Shown: positions 45,844 through 56,210 of the stretch, in pieces
How the letters are laid out: each line of letters begins with the position of its first letter
Position numbering within the stretch: the stretch's first letter is position 1
Source: Bacteroidota bacterium
GTDB taxonomy: Bacteria > Bacteroidota > Bacteroidia > B-17B0 > Aurantibacillaceae
Length of the DNA: 64,000 bases
NCBI GenBank assembly: GCA_018267825.1
Contig: JAFDXR010000003.1
Coordinates: forward strand, 62,001 to 126,000
Direction of reading: 5' to 3'
The notes under the pieces: generated by a model
Databases searched by the model: none
Told to the model about the DNA's origin: nothing
Seen by the model: only the letters and a program-made list of their open reading frames with translations
Translations under genes and position numbers: made by a program

Positions 45844-48435
45844 TTAATGCTGAGTAGTCTGCATTTCCAGGATGCGTGTTTTTTCTTCGCGTGATGGATT
45901 AATCGACGCAGGGTAATTGGTATTGAACTGCAGTGTAGTACCATCCCACCAGACACCTTCAGCACTTTGCGAGCGGTTGCTATCATTAAACAAAGCCCTG
46001 TCGAGGTTACCGTTAAACGTTTTTGTTTTCAGGAACGAAGGTACTTCGGTTGATTTCGCATCAACGCGGTCACCTACAGCGATCCAGGCAATTTCGATGG
46101 TTGAGCTACCGGAGTTCAGTTCTTTCACAGTGAATCCGTTTTTATCGACAGATACAATGTATACGCCATTGCAAGGGCCCATCGGTGTAATCGTTACAAC
46201 AGGGCTTTCACCTAACATATTTTTGTAGTTTTCATCAAACGTGATGGTTGCTACACCGTTTACCATTTGCGCTTTCCCTTTTTTGTAAATGGTCGCTTCT
46301 GTAGATGTAGCTGCATAAGCAGGTACCACAGCTGTTTCGGTATTAACGAGCTCCACGTTTTTGCCGGAGGTATAAACATCGCCCATGTTGTATGCAGCAA
46401 ATAAATCGCCTGCATTCAGATGCCCGATAACACTACCGCGGCTCATGGTACCGATCATTCCGAAGAATCCGCCACCTACACCACCGGCTACCTGTGTCGG
46501 CGCAAAACCGCTACCGCTGCCATAGGCATTACTGCCATAAACACCGAAGGTTGTGGAACCACTGTTTTTGTATCCCATGGATCCCCAATAGGAGCCGTTT
46601 ACTTCAGATCCGAAAGAACCGCCGCAACGGGTATAATCATTGTAATTATAGCTTGCATCACCGAAAGTATAAACATCACCCCAAAAGTTATATCCACCGG
46701 AAGCACGGTTTGTAAGTGTTTGTCCATAACCAGTACCATCGTTCTGCGAATCGCGGGTACGGTATCCGAAAAGTGAACACTGGCCGTCACCGTTTGCTGT
46801 GAGTTGCTGACGGTAAGCGTAAATCAGGTAGGAGATGTTCGGAGAGGTATTTACACCTATTCCTGTACCATTGTCCTGAAACAGTGAGTTTCCAAGTACC
46901 GAACCGCCGGTGGTCCATTTAGTAAGATAGTTTGCCGTGCCGGTTCCTGTTACTGCCGACAGTGTTGCTGCTCCGATATTGCCACTGTTATCGGCAGTAA
47001 GGTAACGGTTACCTCCACCGGCCAAACCGGAAATAATAACACTGCTGGTTTGAACTGTACCTGTAACACCTAATTTATTCGCTGTATAATCCCAGGTAAG
47101 GTTGGCATTTCCCGCAGCACTTCCGCTATTATTATAGGCAATCTGTTTATCCGATCCTGCAATTGGACCTGCAGGTCCTGCAGCACCAGTAGCTCCGGTC
47201 GCGCCTGTGGCACCTGTGGCACCTGCTGGTCCCATTAAACTGCCACCACTCGCGCTCCATGCACCGGATGATTTAACATACGTGAGGCCCGTTGTGGTAT
47301 TTACATAAGAGTCGCCATCATCCCCTAAAGAATTGGCTGGCACTGTGGTTCCACTCAGAAAAGAGGCGCCGTTGGCTCCATTGGTACCATTAGTTCCGTT
47401 TGCACCTGCAGGCCCGGTAGCTCCTGTAGCACCTGTGGCTCCTGCTGCACCCGCAGGTCCTGCCGGGCCCATCAAGCTACCACCTGTCGCACTCCATGCA
47501 CCGGATGATTTAACATACGTCAAACCCGTTGTGGTATTTACATAAGAGTCGCCATCAACACCCAATGCATTGGATGGTGCTGTGGTTCCGCTCAGAAAAG
47601 ACGCACCGTTGGTACCGTTTGCACCATTGGTTCCATTTGCGCCTGCTGTACCTGTAGCTCCTACAGGTCCCATTAAACTACCACCGGTTGCACTCCAGGC
47701 TCCGGCTGATTTAAAGTAAACCAACCCGGTTGTTGAATTGACATATGAATCACCATCAGCACCCAATGTATTGGATGGGACTGTTGTTCCACTCAGAAAA
47801 GAAGCGCCGTTAGTTCCATTGGTACCATTCGTGCCATTTGCACCCGCAGCACCAGCCGCACCAGCAGGTCCCATTAAGCTACCACCATCCAGTGACCATG
47901 CACCGGCATTTTTTACATAGGTTTCACCGGTGGCCGTATTTACATACGAATCGCCATCTGCACCGAGGGTATTTGCCGGTGCTGCTGTTCCACTCAGGAA
48001 CGACGCACCATTTGCACCCGCGGGCCCCGGATTAGAAGCTGTATTGGCATACAATGCATAAGGTACGCTCAACAATTGCGAAGTACCCGAAATGCTATAA
48101 CTTGTTCCTCCCGTTGGATCCACATCTGTTTTAATATAATATGTTCCGGTACCCCAGTTAATAGAAGCCATACTTCCTGACACAACAGTACCGCCGCCTA
48201 TTTCAAGCGTAACGAGACCATTGGCATTACTGGTGGTGGTTTGTGTTTCGGCATATACTACAGGGCCCGTGGGCGAACCCTGCAATACACTGATCTGCAT
48301 ACCAACCGGTGTATTGGTAACCAGTGTGTTTGACGCATTGCGAACAACGGCCTGGTAACTCATTTTCTGAGGCGCCTGCGCTTTTCCTAAACTATAAAGA
48401 AATGCAAAAGCTAATGTGACATAAATCTTTTTCAT
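45844..48435 (-). CDS. Modular collagen-like fibre protein
   Basis: An exported protein of 863 residues. A signal peptide (LAFAFLYSLGKAQ) and an N-terminal beta domain (YQAVVRNASNTLV) are followed by four tandem modules. Each module has a linker of about 42 residues (FLSGT, DGDSYVN, TG, GAWS, GGSLMGP) and a Gly-X-Y run rich in Ala, Thr and Asn. The C-terminal half resembles phage tail-fibre or trimeric adhesin heads (VTGTGTANYLTKW, NGTGIGVNTSPN). No sorting domain is present at the C-terminus. It starts 11 bases after a small T9SS protein gene and is probably cotranscribed with it. Confidence 0.88.
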   Translation of the reverse strand: MKKIYVTLAFAFLYSLGKAQAPQKMSYQAVVRNASNTLVTNTPVGMQISVLQGSPTGPVVYAETQTTTSNANGLVTLEIGGGTVVSGSMASINWGTGTYYIKTDVDPTGGTSYSISGTSQLLSVPYALYANTASNPGPAGANGASFLSGTAAPANTLGADGDSYVNTATGETYVKNAGAWSLDGGSLMGPAGAAGAAGANGTNGTNGTNGASFLSGTTVPSNTLGADGDSYVNSTTGLVYFKSAGAWSATGGSLMGPVGATGTAGANGTNGANGTNGASFLSGTTAPSNALGVDGDSYVNTTTGLTYVKSSGAWSATGGSLMGPAGPAGAAGATGATGATGPAGANGTNGTNGANGASFLSGTTVPANSLGDDGDSYVNTTTGLTYVKSSGAWSASGGSLMGPAGATGATGATGATGAAGPAGPIAGSDKQIAYNNSGSAAGNANLTWDYTANKLGVTGTVQTSSVIISGLAGGGNRYLTADNSGNIGAATLSAVTGTGTANYLTKWTTGGSVLGNSLFQDNGTGIGVNTSPNISYLIYAYRQQLTANGDGQCSLFGYRTRDSQNDGTGYGQTLTNRASGGYNFWGDVYTFGDASYNYNDYTRCGGSFGSEVNGSYWGSMGYKNSGSTTFGVYGSNAYGSGSGFAPTQVAGGVGGGFFGMIGTMSRGSVIGHLNAGDLFAAYNMGDVYTSGKNVELVNTETAVVPAYAATSTEATIYKKGKAQMVNGVATITFDENYKNMLGESPVVTITPMGPCNGVYIVSVDKNGFTVKELNSGSSTIEIAWIAVGDRVDAKSTEVPSFLKTKTFNGNLDRALFNDSNRSQSAEGVWWDGTTLQFNTNYPASINPSREEKTRILEMQTTQH
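47160..48030 (-). repeat. Four tandem collagen/linker modules inside the collagen-like gene
   Basis: Nearly identical blocks repeat here, each carrying FLSGT..P...LG, DGDSYVN and GGSLMGP followed by a Gly-X-Y stretch. The Gly-X-Y parts differ in length between modules, the usual sign of slippage or recombination among repeats. Confidence 0.85.
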
Positions 48436-48446
48436 ATAATTCGTTT

Positions 48447-48941
48447 TTAGTTTTTAATAATCTTGAATTGTTTTTTGAGTTCATTGTTAATGATCACGCT
48501 CAGGAAATAAACTCCCGATGCCTGATCCTGCAATGAAATTTCCGTTTGAGCCTTATCAATGCCCTTGTCCATAACAAGGCGTCCTGCGGCGTCTGTTACT
48601 TTAAAAGAGGCTTTTCTGATCTCATTAAAATCTGAGAATGTCAGATTCAACATGTTGTGCGTTGGATTCGGGAACACAATCATCTCAAGATTGATATCAT
48701 GTGCTTCCACACCCGTTACGATACTGAGATCGTAAGGCTGTTGTACACCCTGGGCAACTGAGATCCCTCCACCGGCAATGGTCGTGTAAACGACCTGACC
48801 AACGGAGTAACTCACATTGCCGGAAGCGCTGCTTGCATTGCCTCCGGATGCTACGGTCGCATCCTGTGCATACCCGTATGTCATGAAAGCCATAAGGGGT
48901 AGCATTAAAATCCGACCTGTTTTGTTTTTACTTGTTTTCAT
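48447..48941 (-). CDS. Small T9SS type A cargo protein
   Basis: A 164-residue secreted protein made of a signal peptide (LPLMAFMTYGYAQD), a short beta-rich segment (GNASSASGNVSYSVGQVVYTT) and a full T9SS sorting domain (IVFPNPTHNMLNLTF, GVYFLSVIINN). Mature domain and sorting domain are about equal in length. It is first in a two-gene unit with the collagen-like fibre, so it may be the surface partner or anchor of that fibre, which has no sorting domain itself. This is inferred from position alone. Confidence 0.88.
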   Translation of the reverse strand: MKTSKNKTGRILMLPLMAFMTYGYAQDATVASGGNASSASGNVSYSVGQVVYTTIAGGGISVAQGVQQPYDLSIVTGVEAHDINLEMIVFPNPTHNMLNLTFSDFNEIRKASFKVTDAAGRLVMDKGIDKAQTEISLQDQASGVYFLSVIINNELKKQFKIIKN

Positions 48942-49360: not shown

Positions 49361-49393
49361 TTTGGAGGATATTGTTTTTCTATCATACATTTG
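49361..49393 (+). promoter_or_regulatory. Promoter of the SAM-riboswitch/methionine operon
   Basis: TTTG (49361-49364) and TACATTTG (49386-49393) are separated by 21 bases, the complete Bacteroidota promoter pattern. Transcription would start near 49400, some 25 bases before the first riboswitch helix. Confidence 0.75.
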
Positions 49394-49425
49394 CATCAGA
49401 ATTAATTACCCACCCATGTGTGTAT

Positions 49426-49555
49426 TTAATTTATAAAGAAGCGACGAGAGAATAGGCTCTATGACTCGCTGGCAACCAACTAAAAGTCCGCTCTGCGTGA
49501 TTGGAAAACCGGTGCCAACTCCTACCCCGATGAAAAACGGGGAAAAATAAATTAA
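49426..49555 (+). promoter_or_regulatory. SAM-I (S-box) riboswitch
   Basis: All core parts can be paired by eye. P1 is nine perfect pairs (49426-49434 with 49547-49555). P2 has AGCGA with TCGCT (49440-49444, 49466-49470), an internal kink-turn region ending in ATGA, and AGAG with CTCT (49447-49450, 49457-49460). Its loop TAGG (49453-49456) forms the pseudoknot with CCTA (49521-49524). The conserved GGCAACC (49471-49477) and GGTGCCAACTCC (49511-49522) form P3 and the J3/4 core. P4 is CCCCG with CGGGG (49525-49529, 49538-49542). It should bind S-adenosylmethionine. No U-tract terminator follows P1; the next element is a leader reading frame that starts 12 bases later, so control may be on its translation. 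Confidence 0.95.
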
Positions 49556-49566
49556 AAAACAAAAAA

Positions 49567-49689
49567 ATGAAACACACAATTCCAACAACCAAAACACTGA
49601 GTCAACCTCTCACTGGTAATTCTATTCTCTATCCTTTAGCTTTCTTCATGATGGCTTGTTGTATGTGCTGCTGTTGCTGCATGTGCTAG
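49567..49689 (+). CDS. Cys/Met-rich leader peptide of the methionine operon
   Basis: A 40-codon frame beginning 12 bases after the riboswitch. The N-terminal 27 residues are ordinary and the end reads MMACCMCCCCCMC, that is eight cysteines and two methionines in the last ten residues. Both cysteine codons are used. A hairpin begins two bases after the TAG stop. A ribosome short of Cys-tRNA or Met-tRNA would stall over this tract and change folding downstream, as in classical amino-acid attenuators; poly-cysteine leader frames with this role are known in mycobacteria. The alternative, a tiny metal-binding peptide, cannot be excluded. I do not know this element from Bacteroidota. Confidence 0.75.
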   Translation: MKHTIPTTKTLSQPLTGNSILYPLAFFMMACCMCCCCCMC

Positions 49690-49690
49690 T

Positions 49691-49722
49691 ACTCATTTCC
49701 ATTTCTTATCTCCGGAAATAGT
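49691..49722 (+). promoter_or_regulatory. Hairpin directly after the leader peptide stop
   Basis: ACT and ATTTCC (49691-49693, 49695-49700) pair with GGAAATAGT (49714-49722) with one bulged C and a 13-base loop. A ribosome halted in the Cys/Met codons at 49657-49686 would overlap its 5' arm. It lacks a U-tract, so it is not a simple terminator. Confidence 0.55.
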
Positions 49723-49723
49723 T

Positions 49724-49742
49724 GCCTGCACTCAAAACAGGC
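49724..49742 (+). promoter_or_regulatory. Short hairpin in the operon leader
   Basis: GCCTG (49724-49728) pairs with CAGGC (49738-49742). CTCA in its loop (49731-49734) could instead pair with TGAG at 49745-49748, so two folds compete. A T-rich but interrupted stretch follows at 49755-49776. Confidence 0.4.
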
Positions 49743-49780: not shown

Positions 49781-49802
49781 TAACCCGGGTTAGCTATAAC
49801 CC
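49781..49802 (+). promoter_or_regulatory. Competing hairpins upstream of the first operon gene
   Basis: TAACCC occurs at 49781-49786 and 49797-49802 with GGGTTA between (49787-49792). The centre copy forms six perfect pairs with the second copy around loop GCTA, or partly with the first copy. The two pairings exclude each other. The hairpin ends 21 bases before the ATG at 49824. Confidence 0.5.
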
Positions 49803-49823: not shown

Positions 49824-50057
49824 ATGAATACTCCAAAATCATACAACACCCAACAAAAAAACGAAAACCTGATTGGCAATCCTGCCCACAAACATTTCCT
49901 GGTTCTTCAGGCGGAATATGGCATTGCCCAAAGAGGCGGCGTAAAAATACCGGCCCTGTCTGAAGCCCATGCCAGAAGGCTTGTTAGCCAGGTGAACATT
50001 CTGGATCAGGTAGAAAACAGAAAGCTGATCTTCAGCGAAATCATCATCAGTAATTAA
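49824..50057 (+). CDS. Small protein of unknown function, first structural gene of the operon
   Basis: A 77-residue soluble protein without signal peptide, cysteine or recognised motif. It has a middle segment FLVLQAEYGIAQRGG and a helical part LSEAHARRLVSQVNILDQVENRK. Codon use and the clean ATG are consistent with a real gene, and it lies 91 bases before metY. Its place behind the SAM riboswitch suggests a role in sulfur or methionine metabolism, but nothing in the sequence says which. Confidence 0.7.
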   Translation: MNTPKSYNTQQKNENLIGNPAHKHFLVLQAEYGIAQRGGVKIPALSEAHARRLVSQVNILDQVENRKLIFSEIIISN

Positions 50058-50064
50058 TCTTTAA

Positions 50065-51501
<1,437 letters not shown>

Positions 51502-51587
51502 TCCATAGCCGCCTGCAGGGGGGAGACAGTTTCCCATCTATAATTGGCTCTCCCGGCATGGCACTTACATTTTCAATACCATATACT

Positions 51588-52655
51588 ATGAGTCTGAAAA
51601 CATTCACATACAATAAACGGTTTAACCTCGAAAGTGGTCTGTCGCTGCCGGGCCTTGATATTGCCTACCATACCTATGGCACACTGAACCGAAAAAAAGA
51701 TAATGTTATCTGGGTTGTGCACGCCCTTACCGCAAACAGCGATGTATTCGACTGGTGGAAAGGCATCTTCGGGGAGCATGACCTTTACAATCCCAATGAA
51801 CATTTTATTGTATGTGCCAATAACCTGGGCTCATGCTATGGTACAACCGGCCCGGCCAGTATTAATCCAGATACAAATCAGCCATGGTACGGTTATTTTC
51901 CACACATTACCACACGCGACCAGGCCGCTGCACTCGACCTGTTGAGACAGCATCTGGGCATTGAAAAAATTCACACATTGATCGGCGGCTCTCAGGGTGG
52001 ACAAATCGCGCAGGAGTGGGCATTATCAAATCCGGGTATTCATGAGAACCTGGTGCTGATTGCTACAAATGCGCAACATTCACCCTGGGGCATTGCCTTC
52101 AATGAATCGCAGCGCTTAGCAATCAAGAGCGACCGCACGTATTACTCCAATACAGCCAATGGCGGTGAAAAAGGCTTACAGGCTGCGCGCAGCATTGCCC
52201 TGCTGAGCTACAGAAGTTACAATACCTATAGCGAAACCCAGCAGGAAAACACGGCGGATAAAACTGAAGATTTTTCAGCGGCATCCTATCAGCGATACCA
52301 GGGCGAAAAGCTTGTGAAACGTTTCAATGCATACTCCTATGTGCGACTTTCGGAAGCCATGGATTCACACCATGTAGCGCGAAACCGCACACCGGATGTT
52401 ACCGGAGCACTCGCCAGGATCAGGGCCAATACACTTGTTATAGGTATTACCAGCGACATCCTGTTTCCTGTGAGCGAACAAAAACTGATTGCCAAAAATA
52501 TTCCGGGAGCGTTTTACGCAGAGATTGATTCATTCTATGGACACGATGGTTTTCTGATCGAAACACATAAGCTCTACACCATCATCTCCGATTTCTACAA
52601 TAAAATTTCATTCAACAACACCATTAAACGTCAATTAGAAACAAGCTTAAACTAA
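51588..52655 (+). CDS. metX: Homoserine O-acetyltransferase
   Basis: A 355-residue alpha/beta-hydrolase-fold enzyme that acetylates homoserine from acetyl-CoA. The nucleophile elbow is GGSQGGQIAQEWAL; the acid and base are in DILFPVSEQ and YGHDGFLIE. GSCYGTTGPASINP matches the family's oxyanion region. ATG 51588 (MSLKTFTYNK) is preferred to an in-frame ATG at 51558. It directly feeds the preceding sulfhydrylase. Confidence 0.94.
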   Translation: MSLKTFTYNKRFNLESGLSLPGLDIAYHTYGTLNRKKDNVIWVVHALTANSDVFDWWKGIFGEHDLYNPNEHFIVCANNLGSCYGTTGPASINPDTNQPWYGYFPHITTRDQAAALDLLRQHLGIEKIHTLIGGSQGGQIAQEWALSNPGIHENLVLIATNAQHSPWGIAFNESQRLAIKSDRTYYSNTANGGEKGLQAARSIALLSYRSYNTYSETQQENTADKTEDFSAASYQRYQGEKLVKRFNAYSYVRLSEAMDSHHVARNRTPDVTGALARIRANTLVIGITSDILFPVSEQKLIAKNIPGAFYAEIDSFYGHDGFLIETHKLYTIISDFYNKISFNNTIKRQLETSLN

Positions 52656-52664
52656 TATACCATT

Positions 52665-53915
52665 ATGAGCAAGACATTAAAAATAGGATTATTCGGATTT
52701 GGCTGCGTAGGCCAGGGCCTCTACCATGTACTTAACAACAGTACAGGATTCAAAGCCGACATCGTAAAGATCGCCGTGAAACATCCTGAAAAAGAGCGTT
52801 CCGTTTCCAAAGAACTGATCACATACAACAAATGGGATATATTGAATAACCCCGAAATCGACGTGGTTGTAGAACTCATTGATGATGCCGACGAAGCATT
52901 CCTGATCGTGAGTGAAGCTATTAAAAAAGGGAAACATGTAGTGACTGCCAATAAAAAACTACTGGCCACACACCTGGAAGAACTGTACAGCCTGCAACAG
53001 CAATACAATGTATCCTTGCTTTATGAAGCTTCGGCCTGCGGAAGCATTCCTATTATCAGGAGCCTGGAAGAATACTTCGACAATGAAGAGCTCGAAAAAG
53101 TATCCGGTATTTTCAATGGTACTACCAATTATATTCTGACAAAGACCATCCGCGAAAAGCTCAGCTACGCCGAGGCCCTCAGCCAGGCCCAGCAGAAAGG
53201 TTTTGCCGAAAGCGATCCAACCAACGATGTGGAAGGCTTTGACCCGAAATTCAAAGCCATTATCATTGCTCTGCATGCCTTTGGCCTGATCATAAAGCCG
53301 GAAGATATCCTCAACCTGGGTATTACCACGCTTCATGACAACGACATTAATTACGCCTCTGAGAAAGGCTATAAAATAAAGCTGACCCCGCTTATTCAAC
53401 GTCTGCCCAACAACCAGGTGAGTGTGCTTGTTGCACCAAGGTTCATCAAAGAAGAAAACCATCTTTTCAAAGTGGATGATGAATTCAACGGCGTTATTGT
53501 TGAAGGAAAATTTTCCGGAGAGCAATTCCTGCAGGGCAAAGGTGCCGGCAGCTACCCTACTGGAGCAGCTGTATTATCAGATATTTCAGCCCTTTCATAC
53601 GGCTATAAATACGAATACAAAAAACACCGTCAAAACCAAAGACCTGAATTCACCAATGATGTTTTGCTGACTGTGTACCTCCGTTACAACACTGTGATTG
53701 ATCTTGAACATATTGAGTTCGAAAATATCCGCGAGAAATACACAGGCCACGATTACAATTACATTGTGGGTGAAGTGAATCTGGCAAATCTGCTGGCCGA
53801 GCGTGATTACATCCTGAAAAACAATCTTTTTATATCACTGTTAGGCGACTCCGTTAAATCCGTAAATTCAGAAATCAAAAAAGCAACAAAATCCACCTCT
53901 ATTCTTAACCACTAA
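52665..53915 (+). CDS. hom: Homoserine dehydrogenase (monofunctional)
   Basis: A 416-residue enzyme that reduces aspartate semialdehyde to homoserine. The Rossmann motif is GLFGFGCVGQGLYHVL; the catalytic region shows GIFNGTTNYILTKT and ESDPTNDVEGFD with conserved acidic and lysine residues. The C-terminal 75 residues have the length and strand pattern of an ACT regulatory domain. No aspartokinase is fused, so this copy appears dedicated to methionine rather than threonine supply. It starts 9 bases after metX. Confidence 0.94.
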   Translation: MSKTLKIGLFGFGCVGQGLYHVLNNSTGFKADIVKIAVKHPEKERSVSKELITYNKWDILNNPEIDVVVELIDDADEAFLIVSEAIKKGKHVVTANKKLLATHLEELYSLQQQYNVSLLYEASACGSIPIIRSLEEYFDNEELEKVSGIFNGTTNYILTKTIREKLSYAEALSQAQQKGFAESDPTNDVEGFDPKFKAIIIALHAFGLIIKPEDILNLGITTLHDNDINYASEKGYKIKLTPLIQRLPNNQVSVLVAPRFIKEENHLFKVDDEFNGVIVEGKFSGEQFLQGKGAGSYPTGAAVLSDISALSYGYKYEYKKHRQNQRPEFTNDVLLTVYLRYNTVIDLEHIEFENIREKYTGHDYNYIVGEVNLANLLAERDYILKNNLFISLLGDSVKSVNSEIKKATKSTSILNH

Positions 53916-53927
53916 AAACCAAAAATC

Positions 53928-54563
53928 ATGTCCATACGATTAGGCGATACCGCACCCGATTTCCAGGCCGAAACAAGCCAGGGCCCCATTCAGTTCCATC
54001 AATGGCTCAACAACAGCTGGGCCATCCTGTTTTCACACCCTGCCGATTTTACACCGGTATGTACCACTGAACTTGGTACTGTGGCCAGGCTTAAACCTGA
54101 GTTTGATAAACGCGGCGTCAAAGTCATTGCACTGAGTGTTGATCCTGTAGCTTCTCATCTGGAATGGATCAAAGACATCAACGAAACACAAAACACAACG
54201 GTTAACTACCCGATCATTGCAGATCCTGTTTTTGAAGTTTCCAAACTCTATGGCTTTGTGCATCCGAATGCTTCTGATAAATTCACGGTTCGTTCGGTTG
54301 CCATTATTGGTCCCGACAAAAAAATAAAACTGCTCATTACATATCCGGCTTCAACGGGTCGTAATTTCAATGAAATACTCCGCGTCATTGATTCACTGCA
54401 GCTGACCGCCAATTACAGTGTAGCAACCCCCGCTAACTGGGAGCATGGCGACGATGTTGTAGTGATACCGGCTATCAAAACTGAAGATATCCCGGCCAAA
54501 TTCCCGAAAGGCTTTAAAGAAATAAAGCCCTACCTGCGCATCACACCGCAACCAAATATCTGA
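53928..54563 (+). CDS. 1-Cys (Prx6-type) peroxiredoxin
   Basis: A 211-residue cytoplasmic peroxidase of the AhpC/TSA family. The peroxidatic cysteine is in HPADFTPVCTTELG near residue 48 and is the only cysteine in the protein. A C-terminal extension with GDDVVVIPAI and FPKGFKEIKPYLR marks the Prx6 subgroup. It is placed 12 bases after hom and 55 bases before an OsmC gene. Peroxide defence inside a sulfide-fixing operon is probably linked to protecting thiols. Confidence 0.94.
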   Translation: MSIRLGDTAPDFQAETSQGPIQFHQWLNNSWAILFSHPADFTPVCTTELGTVARLKPEFDKRGVKVIALSVDPVASHLEWIKDINETQNTTVNYPIIADPVFEVSKLYGFVHPNASDKFTVRSVAIIGPDKKIKLLITYPASTGRNFNEILRVIDSLQLTANYSVATPANWEHGDDVVVIPAIKTEDIPAKFPKGFKEIKPYLRITPQPNI

Positions 54564-54618: not shown

Positions 54619-55047
54619 ATGAGCAAAGTACAGGTAAACATTGAGCGTCTCAACGATGCGTTCCATTTCAGAGCAACTAACGAAAGTGGAAATACGCTTG
54701 ATCTGGATGCCAGTCCGGAGATTGGCGGAGAAAACAAAGGATTCAGACCCATGCAGCTTCTGTTAGCCGCCGTTGGGAGCTGCAGCGCCATTGATGTGGT
54801 GAATATTCTGAAAAAACAAAAACAAACGATTCTGCATTTTGATGTGGAAGTGATTGCTGACCGTGAAGCTGTTGAAGAATACTCGCAATACAAAACCATA
54901 CACCTTCACTTCAAACTGCGTGGCCCAATTGATCCTGACAAAGCTGAAAAGGCAGTAAAACTCTCGCTCGACAAGTATTGCTCTGTATCCAAAGCGCTGG
55001 AGCCTCTTTCGCGTATTACCCATTCTGTAAGCATTCAATCCACATGA
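54619..55047 (+). CDS. OsmC-family thiol peroxidase-like protein
   Basis: A 142-residue protein with the two conserved cysteines of the Ohr/OsmC family, in LLAAVGSCSAID and LDKYCSVSK, and the arginine-bearing strand at the N-terminus (FHFRATNESG). Members reduce organic hydroperoxides. The stop overlaps the next gene's start (ATGA). Confidence 0.92.
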   Translation: MSKVQVNIERLNDAFHFRATNESGNTLDLDASPEIGGENKGFRPMQLLLAAVGSCSAIDVVNILKKQKQTILHFDVEVIADREAVEEYSQYKTIHLHFKLRGPIDPDKAEKAVKLSLDKYCSVSKALEPLSRITHSVSIQST

Positions 55048-56210
55048 AAGATAAACACTTTGAAACCCAGTCCATCCGTGCCCAATTGCCACGAAGCGGC
55101 AACAATGAACATTCTGTCCCGCTCTACCTCACATCCAGCTTTGTTTTGGACTCGGCAGAAGACATGCGTGCTGCATTTGCAGAAGAAACAGATCCGTTCA
55201 TCTATTCGCGTTACAGCAACCCGAACAACAATGAATTTGTTGAGAAAATCTGTCTGCTCGAAGGAGCTGAAACCGGCATTGCTACAGCTTCCGGAATGGC
55301 AGCCATTTATACAACACTGGCGGCACTGCTCAGTGCGGGCGACCACGTCATTTCCTGCTCATCTGTATTCGGTGCTACCCACACCATTTTCAATAAGTAC
55401 TTTCCGAAATGGAATATCTCTTACAGCTACTTCGATGCCGGAAGCCCGGAAACGATTGAAACACTGGTAAAACCAAACACAAAAATACTTTACCTCGAAA
55501 CGCCAACCAATCCTGCCATTGAAGTTATTGATCTTGAGCTTGTCGGAGAAATTGCCAGGCGCAACAACCTGATCCTCATTGTCGACAACTGTTTTGCAAC
55601 CCCATACCTCCAGCAACCCATCCACTTTGGCGCTGACCTCGTGATTCACTCGGCTACAAAATACATCGACGGACAGGGGCGTGTGCTTGGCGGTGTTGTT
55701 GTCGGACGCCAGGACCTGGTGCGCGAAATCTATTTATTCGGCCGCATTACCGGCCCTTCCCTCTCCCCTTTCAACGCCTGGGTACTAAGCAAAAGCCTGG
55801 AAACACTGGCTCTTCGCATGGACCGCCATTGCGAAAACGCTTTGTATATTGCTCAAAAGCTGGAAACACACCCTGCACTTGAATTTGTGAAATACCCGTT
55901 TTTACCCTCACATCCGCACTACCCCATCGCAAAAAAACAAATGAAAGCCGGCGGAGGGATCATCACATTTTCCGTAAAAGGTGGCTACGAAGGCGGGAAA
56001 AAACTGATGGATAACCTGAAGATGATCCGTATCTCCCCTAACCTCGGCGATTCCAGGACCATCGCCACGCATCCGGCATCCTCCACACACTGCAAGCTCA
56101 GCGAAAAAGAACGGCTCGATGTGGGTATCTTACCGGGACTCGTAAGAATATCTGTTGGGCTCGAAAACAAAGAAGACATCCTGGCCGATATTTTACAGGC
56201 ACTAGGCTGA
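55044..56210 (+). CDS. Cys/Met-metabolism PLP enzyme (probable O-succinyl/acetylhomoserine sulfhydrylase)
   Basis: A 388-residue PLP enzyme of the cystathionine gamma-synthase/MetZ family. ATG 55044 overlaps the OsmC stop and starts MKDKHFETQSIRAQ. It carries ATASGMAAIYTTLAALL, VDNCFATPYLQQP and the lysine motif SATKYIDGQGRVLGG, whose DGQGR is typical of MetZ-like sulfhydrylases. It lacks the long insertion of the metY product. It could be a second sulfhydrylase or a cystathionine gamma-synthase or lyase; sequence alone does not settle the substrate. Confidence 0.88.
   Translation: MKDKHFETQSIRAQLPRSGNNEHSVPLYLTSSFVLDSAEDMRAAFAEETDPFIYSRYSNPNNNEFVEKICLLEGAETGIATASGMAAIYTTLAALLSAGDHVISCSSVFGATHTIFNKYFPKWNISYSYFDAGSPETIETLVKPNTKILYLETPTNPAIEVIDLELVGEIARRNNLILIVDNCFATPYLQQPIHFGADLVIHSATKYIDGQGRVLGGVVVGRQDLVREIYLFGRITGPSLSPFNAWVLSKSLETLALRMDRHCENALYIAQKLETHPALEFVKYPFLPSHPHYPIAKKQMKAGGGIITFSVKGGYEGGKKLMDNLKMIRISPNLGDSRTIATHPASSTHCKLSEKERLDVGILPGLVRISVGLENKEDILADILQALG

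Follow-up and report, generated by a model that had tools for sequence, protein, structure and literature searches.

In Salmonella the mgtA/mgtL leader combines Mg2+ sensing with the translation of proline codons, and in Escherichia coli a ribosome that stalls where the tnaC leader ends hides a Rho site beside the stop codon. SAM-I (S-box, RF00162) riboswitches are found upstream of methionine genes; a terminator/antiterminator platform is common in this family, although it is not needed for membership, and in those surveyed copies that control translation directly the ribosome-binding site lies within the 3' side of P1 (PMC2258182). Poly-Cys leader frames have been predicted in mycobacteria (PMC1262725) and a leader of this type was later tested in Actinobacteria (Canestrari et al., 2020, as cited in PMC13236596). 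The uORFC-8-2 motif before cysS in Rhodobacterales contains a two-Cys leader for which attenuation by Cys-tRNA has been proposed (PMC8632094). Small upstream frames are the targets of the B12 riboswitch (PMC11260477) and of the Mg2+-sensing Mbox riboswitch, with Rho-dependent termination (PMC12810186), in Mycobacterium tuberculosis, and for Flavobacterium psychrophilum it has been suspected that leader attenuation acts on amino acid operons (PMC9723704).

In the window analysed here (64 000 nucleotides of a Bacteroidota genome, contig JAFDXR010000003.1, positions 62 001–126 000 of the forward strand) a SAM-I aptamer is joined to a short frame ending in cysteine and methionine codons, upstream of metY and metX. 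The arrangement is a real and conserved regulatory module and a new combination of two known kinds, with downstream signalling by the leader unproven. No report of a SAM-I riboswitch joined to a Cys/Met leader was found in the open-access literature, to which the search was limited; each half has been reported separately. Poly-Cys leaders are known from Actinobacteria and Cys-codon leaders from Rhodobacterales, so that what is new is confined to the tandem and to the setting in Bacteroidota.

The aptamer agrees with RF00162 in sequence, in fold and in its position upstream of methionine genes; it differs in lacking a terminator, the usual platform being absent from leader-linked copies generally, and in that the frame which follows P1 first encodes a Cys/Met leader and not an enzyme. 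Like the mycobacterial leaders, for which Rho has been suggested, the frame is short and upstream of sulfur genes, carries a Cys run close to its stop and has no clear intrinsic terminator. Those leaders differ in belonging to Actinobacteria and to cys operons, in being leaderless in the tested case and in having no riboswitch ahead; the leaderless trait is missing from the window, where a 126-nt aptamer precedes the frame. With uORFC-8-2 the frame shares Cys codons in tandem and conservation of the start codon; that motif has only two Cys codons, an intrinsic terminator and no riboswitch. Ligand-controlled translation of a small upstream frame links the proposed arrangement to the M. tuberculosis B12 and Mbox elements, which differ in ligand and phylum and for which no run of codons for a pathway amino acid has been described. 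The mgtA/mgtL leader differs in its signals and its RNA, and has no canonical aptamer placed ahead of a distinct leader frame. The tnaC leader serves as the model for occlusion of Rho by a stalled ribosome, but stalling is caused there by free tryptophan and not by a lack of charged tRNA, and no riboswitch is involved.

The aptamer was located by cmscan at 49428–49553 on the forward strand (Rfam RF00162, 68.6 bits, E = 6.5e-14, gathering score 44.4). The match covered the full model (1–108) and was the only Rfam match across the whole window; no known RNA family was found 3' of the aptamer, and a plasmid search for similar DNA found none. A likely Bacteroidota sigma-A promoter was read from the sequence at 49362–49393 (+), composed of TTG (49362–49364), a 21 nt spacer and TACATTTG (49386–49393), which matches the consensus TAnnTTTG (PMC9723704); by inference, these two elements suggest a transcript start near 49400. 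In the cmscan alignment the 3' strand of P1 (49546–49553, +, AAUAAAUU) pairs with 49428–49435 (AAUUUAUA) in a helix of A/U pairs only, which comparison of the aptamer classes showed to be typical of leader-linked copies.

P1 is followed by an A-rich linker of 13 nt (49554–49566, +), assigned as the leader initiation region from its sequence, from the spacing in relatives and from the unpaired probability around the leader AUG (0.90 in the window fold). The leader frame of 40 codons (MKHTIPTTKTLSQPLTGNSILYPLAFFMMACCMCCCCCMC; 49567–49689, +) ends in a putative regulatory tract of eight Cys and two Met codons that runs up to the stop codon (49657–49686, +; last ten residues CCMCCCCCMC). Among 3141 open stretches of at least ten residues in the window, no other has at least six Cys in ten, and the frame had no match in the protein family libraries searched. 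A preliminary description of this DNA had reported a complete SAM-I aptamer and, 12 bases beyond it, a 40-codon frame with eight Cys and two Met in its last ten residues. The covariance-model match and the translated sequence confirmed that the aptamer and the Cys-rich frame are real; the gap is 13 bases (AAAAAACAAAAAA) rather than 12.

SAM-I copies were searched for in 60 relatives, in 217 genomes of the class and in 60 genomes of one further family, and conservation was counted over 187 distinct SAM-I loci that had not been selected for Cys; the loci are related to each other and the counts are not independent events. A short frame began 0–15 nt after P1 in all 33 copies that precede a close metY. 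Loss of the Cys-rich frame from relatives that keep the riboswitch had been named beforehand as an outcome that would refute the proposal. The frame was kept, at a level well above what chance would give: its last 14 codons held at least two Cys in 28 of the 33 metY copies (0.26 expected from shuffles) and at least four in 24, and at least two in 13 of the 16 metX copies (0.18 expected). Before other genes a Cys leader was found at 6/138 copies (6/121 other genes and 0/17 distant PLP enzymes), and two of those six are genuine leaders, treated below. The pairing of SAM-I and leader occurs in seven families of the class (f1, f2, f15, f40, f47, f48 and f53). The P1-type pattern, applied without any Cys criterion to 392 genomes of the phylum, matched 22, all in the class of the window. 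Searching named genomes directly for the Cys tract yielded 43 matches, and those with an aptamer core upstream were Bacteroidota records, including the isolate Mucilaginibacter rivuli (L128), in which the aptamer was confirmed. The Cys input is not universal, since some metY loci of other genera (L165, L234, L239, L241 and L254) have only 0–1 Cys in the frame. Most Flavobacteriaceae-like genomes of f53 yielded no leader; P1 is of another type in their SAM-I copies, and metY is more distant.

Codon usage was compared over the leaders of 39 cluster representatives. Cys made up 235 of 546 residues (43%) in the last 14 positions and 8 of 999 (0.8%) elsewhere, and Met 91 of 546 (17%) and 15 of 999 (1.5%), respectively. 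The representatives had been picked for Cys, so that the independent evidence consists of the Met figure and the position of the tract. The two Cys codons were used almost equally (128 TGT, 115 TGC), so that what has been kept is the amino acid and not the nucleotide sequence. Common endings are CMCCCCSMC, CICMCCCCC and MRLCCCTPCCCCC, with the Met-rich MRMRMPMSCFSYMCA in f53. At L186 and L242 (G184) and at L243 (G612) Met codons rival or dominate Cys (MRMRMPMSCFSYMCA, MRMHTPMSCCCYMCA), and both genomes encode cysE. A functional Cys-rich peptide (thiol- or metal-binding, or modified), co-expressed with sulfur genes under SAM control and without a regulatory role, would be consistent with the conserved start, length and Cys-rich end and with the MK start in many relatives. 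This reading is quite improbable: the N-terminal sequence, the length (19–55 codons) and the arrangement of Cys vary freely, only the Cys/Met codons beside the stop are kept, and the frame lies in cis before sulfur genes in nearly all identified cases.

The two parts can also be separated. At L104 and L121 a poly-Cys leader precedes metY–metX with no SAM-I match, and in genome G201 four of the five SAM-I copies have both the leader-type P1 and a Cys leader, the copy before metH having neither. The four lie before metY (L237), before cysH–cysD and a likely cysN (L178), before an APC-type permease recognized by sequence inspection (L296) and before an ATP-grasp gene (L297); in the related genome G091 the aptamer and Cys leader are followed by an ATP-grasp gene and then by an SfnG-like monooxygenase (L179). 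GTG start codons are used in the leaders of L178, L296, L297 and L179. As judged from these gene neighbourhoods, SAM-I with a Cys leader is a module that reaches past methionine synthesis; the leader-only loci and the multiple copies in G201 indicate that each part occurs alone and that the pair is re-used at sulfur genes. An ordinary SAM riboswitch, unusual only in its expression platform and followed by a Cys tract that senses nothing, would fit the standard position of SAM-I before met genes and those metY loci that have few or no Cys codons. It would leave unexplained the enrichment of Cys and Met beside the stop, the confinement of the tract to metY/metX and sulfur uptake genes and the leaders without any riboswitch, and is regarded as very improbable.

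The aptamers themselves fall into two classes. A leader accompanied 32 of 38 loci in which P1 begins xxTTTAT (two with GTG starts counted) but only 2 of 134 other copies. P1 was weaker in leader-linked copies (−2.6 versus −5.0 kcal mol−1) and ended a median of 12 nt before the start codon, and the 60 nt after the aptamer were unstructured (z = +0.26), whereas those of the other copies were structured (z = −1.01). A terminator-like hairpin with a U-run lay near the aptamer in 66/140 other SAM-I copies but in 0/41 leader-linked copies, and none stands directly 3' of the window aptamer; an intrinsic terminator after the aptamer was therefore rejected as the expression platform. An alternative partner for the P1 3' strand and linker was likewise rejected, since such a partner is confined to the other class (z = −0.79; leader class, z = +0.37). 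By comparison of sequences and predicted folds, the leader-linked aptamers are a SAM-I variant of their own with a mostly A/U P1, open RNA after P1 and no terminator. Because P1 is A/U-weak, the downstream RNA is open and a terminator is absent, direct control of leader translation by P1 is probable, both translation and SAM binding being inferred. The simplest reading is that the SAM-closed helix would cover the leader initiation region; in the window it is placed to block the start of the frame, with no competing platform. The preliminary description had noted that the riboswitch has no U-tract terminator of its own and that closing of P1 may act on leader translation rather than on transcription, and both points are supported by these comparisons. 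Bacteroidota lack Shine–Dalgarno sequences (PMC9723704).

One leader-class aptamer without a Cys frame (L056, G001:C34:1852-1976) lies before the gene of a predicted secreted protein, which is not a recognized sulfur gene. The second SAM-I riboswitch of the host (L067, G000:C29:150500-150675) has a GC-containing P1 and no Cys leader; the gene that follows it is a different one (254 aa, starting MSQNSLHRFSDRVDNYVRYRPHYPE), and this arrangement was seen in several relatives.

Past the leader stop the fold contains hairpin H1 (AUUUCC/GGAAAU; 49695–49719, +), immediately after the stop codon, and hairpin H2 (GCCUG/CAGGC; 49724–49742, +). A small hairpin before the next gene (GGGUUA/UAACCC; 49787–49802, +) was not conserved in position or sequence in the relatives inspected. 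Over the 39 representatives the region from +1 to +90 after the stop was more structured than its shuffles (mean z = −2.18 ± 0.27); one hairpin stands at the stop codon and another follows. Two traits of amino acid attenuators are present, namely a short translated-looking frame before an amino acid operon and a run of codons for a pathway amino acid; mutually exclusive hairpins that end in an intrinsic terminator are not. A terminator-like hairpin with a U-tract follows the leader stop at only 7/44 loci and not in the window, no single conserved terminator/antiterminator pair was found, and an intrinsic terminator at this point was rejected.

The same two sensors could act through a switch in RNA structure instead of through Rho. 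In the absence of a ribosome at that point, UGCUAAG (the last Cys codon and the stop) would then be paired to CUUGGCA, the 5' arm of H2, and the choice between an extended H1 and H2 would set transcription pausing, termination or RNA decay. The RNA is clearly structured, and the pairing is suggestively possible in several relatives, with compensatory changes in some lineages (UGUUAAG/CUUAACA in L034, CUUAGCA in L114 and L050, GGCACA in L128, and UAACAACA in L033 and L167). It was not seen, however, in L089, L077, L168 and L257; across lineages the signal was weak (z only −0.66 ± 0.20, permutation p = 0.037), no U-tract lies behind H2 and few loci have a terminator-like element, so that this version is considered unlikely without being dismissed. 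In a scheme of translational attenuation the Cys tract would instead be base-paired to the region where ribosomes bind the next gene, and a ribosome on the tract would free that region. Strikingly, the minimum free-energy fold of the window does have AACAACAAG, which lies immediately before the AUG at 49824, paired with the first part of the tract; the idea was dropped since the tested leaders do not conserve this pairing (mean z = −0.15 ± 0.17), which is a consequence of A/C-rich start regions. It is largely refuted and hardly credible.

From the observed aptamer, frame, conservation, codon enrichment, class-specific P1, terminator absence, post-stop structure and gene partners, a scheme is proposed in which the SAM riboswitch gates a Cys/Met leader that regulates the metY–metX operon, with a probability of roughly 0.7. 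No expression, binding or ribosome data stand behind it. The preliminary description had read the pair as a two-signal sulfur sensor, one element sensing SAM and the other possibly charged Cys-tRNA and Met-tRNA; the comparisons support this reading, with SAM binding and stalling inferred. The output of SAM-I would be leader translation, in series with ribosome-mediated attenuation of the operon. When SAM is present, its inferred binding would shut P1 13 nt upstream of the leader AUG, no ribosome would start and transcription of the bare leader RNA would end before the operon. When SAM is low, the weak A/U-only P1 would be open and ribosomes would load on the leader, the translation of which is likewise inferred. 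If charged Cys-tRNA (or Met-tRNA) were ample, the ribosomes would reach the stop and depart, exposing the RNA behind them and leaving the operon mostly off; if it were scarce, they would stall on the terminal Cys/Met tract, cover the stop region and turn the operon on. Stalling on these codons and the direction of the output are inferences. The stalled ribosome may change hairpins H1 and H2 and would hold the terminating machinery off; this machinery would most likely be Rho, blocked by occlusion as in the tnaC leader. Rho is favoured because no intrinsic terminator is present, the post-stop RNA is pyrimidine-rich with more C than G, and the host genome encodes Rho (624.6 bits). Rho sites cannot be reliably predicted and the bias of C over G is modest; the Rho step, itself inferred, is given by itself slightly less than an even chance.

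A wider statement is favoured only by a narrow balance, namely that this is a general sulfur module of Bacteroidota, in which the sole action of SAM-I would be to gate whether a Cys/Met leader is translated, and a two-step gate (low SAM and low Cys-tRNA) would precede genes for making homocysteine, assimilating sulfate and taking up sulfur, without Shine–Dalgarno sequences or intrinsic terminators. In the host no serine acetyltransferase (cysE) was recognizable (only partial matches, the best with 32.7 bits where the cut-off is 210.65) and cystathionine β-synthase is full-length (504.5 bits against a cut-off of 510.25), so that homocysteine from MetX/MetY probably feeds both SAM and cysteine. 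At L105 the aptamer, Cys leader and metY are accompanied by a gene whose best match is cystathionine β-synthase. The leader is not confined to hosts without cysE, which is present in 10 of 41 genomes with a leader, and loss of cysE as a simple predictor of the leader was rejected (10/41 versus 14/35, p = 0.22); only in tract length was there a difference, genomes that lack cysE having longer Cys tracts (p = 0.009, without correction for kinship). If the two-sensor scheme is correct, two end products would be watched, homocysteine probably being the branch point to SAM and cysteine in a host without serine acetyltransferase, and the cell would probably check both in sequence before making more. 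The locus would then be a natural gate in which a single transcript carries both a metabolite aptamer and a tRNA sensor that works through codons, and this gate would recur across a bacterial class that starts translation without Shine–Dalgarno sequences. The weak P1 about 12 nt before the leader start makes it testable how riboswitches control translation there.

The first gene past the leader encodes a 77-aa protein (49824–50057, +) with relatives at the same place in about 25 loci. This small protein of about 75 residues, standing between the leader and metY/metX, has invariant GG, R and E residues and a C-terminal Asn; no match was found in Pfam, NCBIfam or the PDB, and structure prediction gave only a weak helical model of low confidence (pLDDT 64.5). 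It is followed on the same strand by metY (O-acetylhomoserine sulfhydrylase; 50149–51501, TIGR01326, 666.7 bits), a metX-type homoserine acyltransferase (51558–52655; best match TIGR01392, 339 bits, under the cut-off of 500), homoserine dehydrogenase (52665–53915; Pfam PF00742 and PF03447), a peroxiredoxin (53928–54563), an OsmC-family protein (54619–55047) and a PLP enzyme of Cys/Met metabolism of the γ-synthase/γ-lyase type (54978–56210; PF01053). The latter is possibly a cystathionine γ-lyase, and its true start is probably later than 54978. On the reverse strand, an 863-aa protein with a collagen-like repeat (45844–48435) adjoins a Por secretion tail protein (48447–48941).
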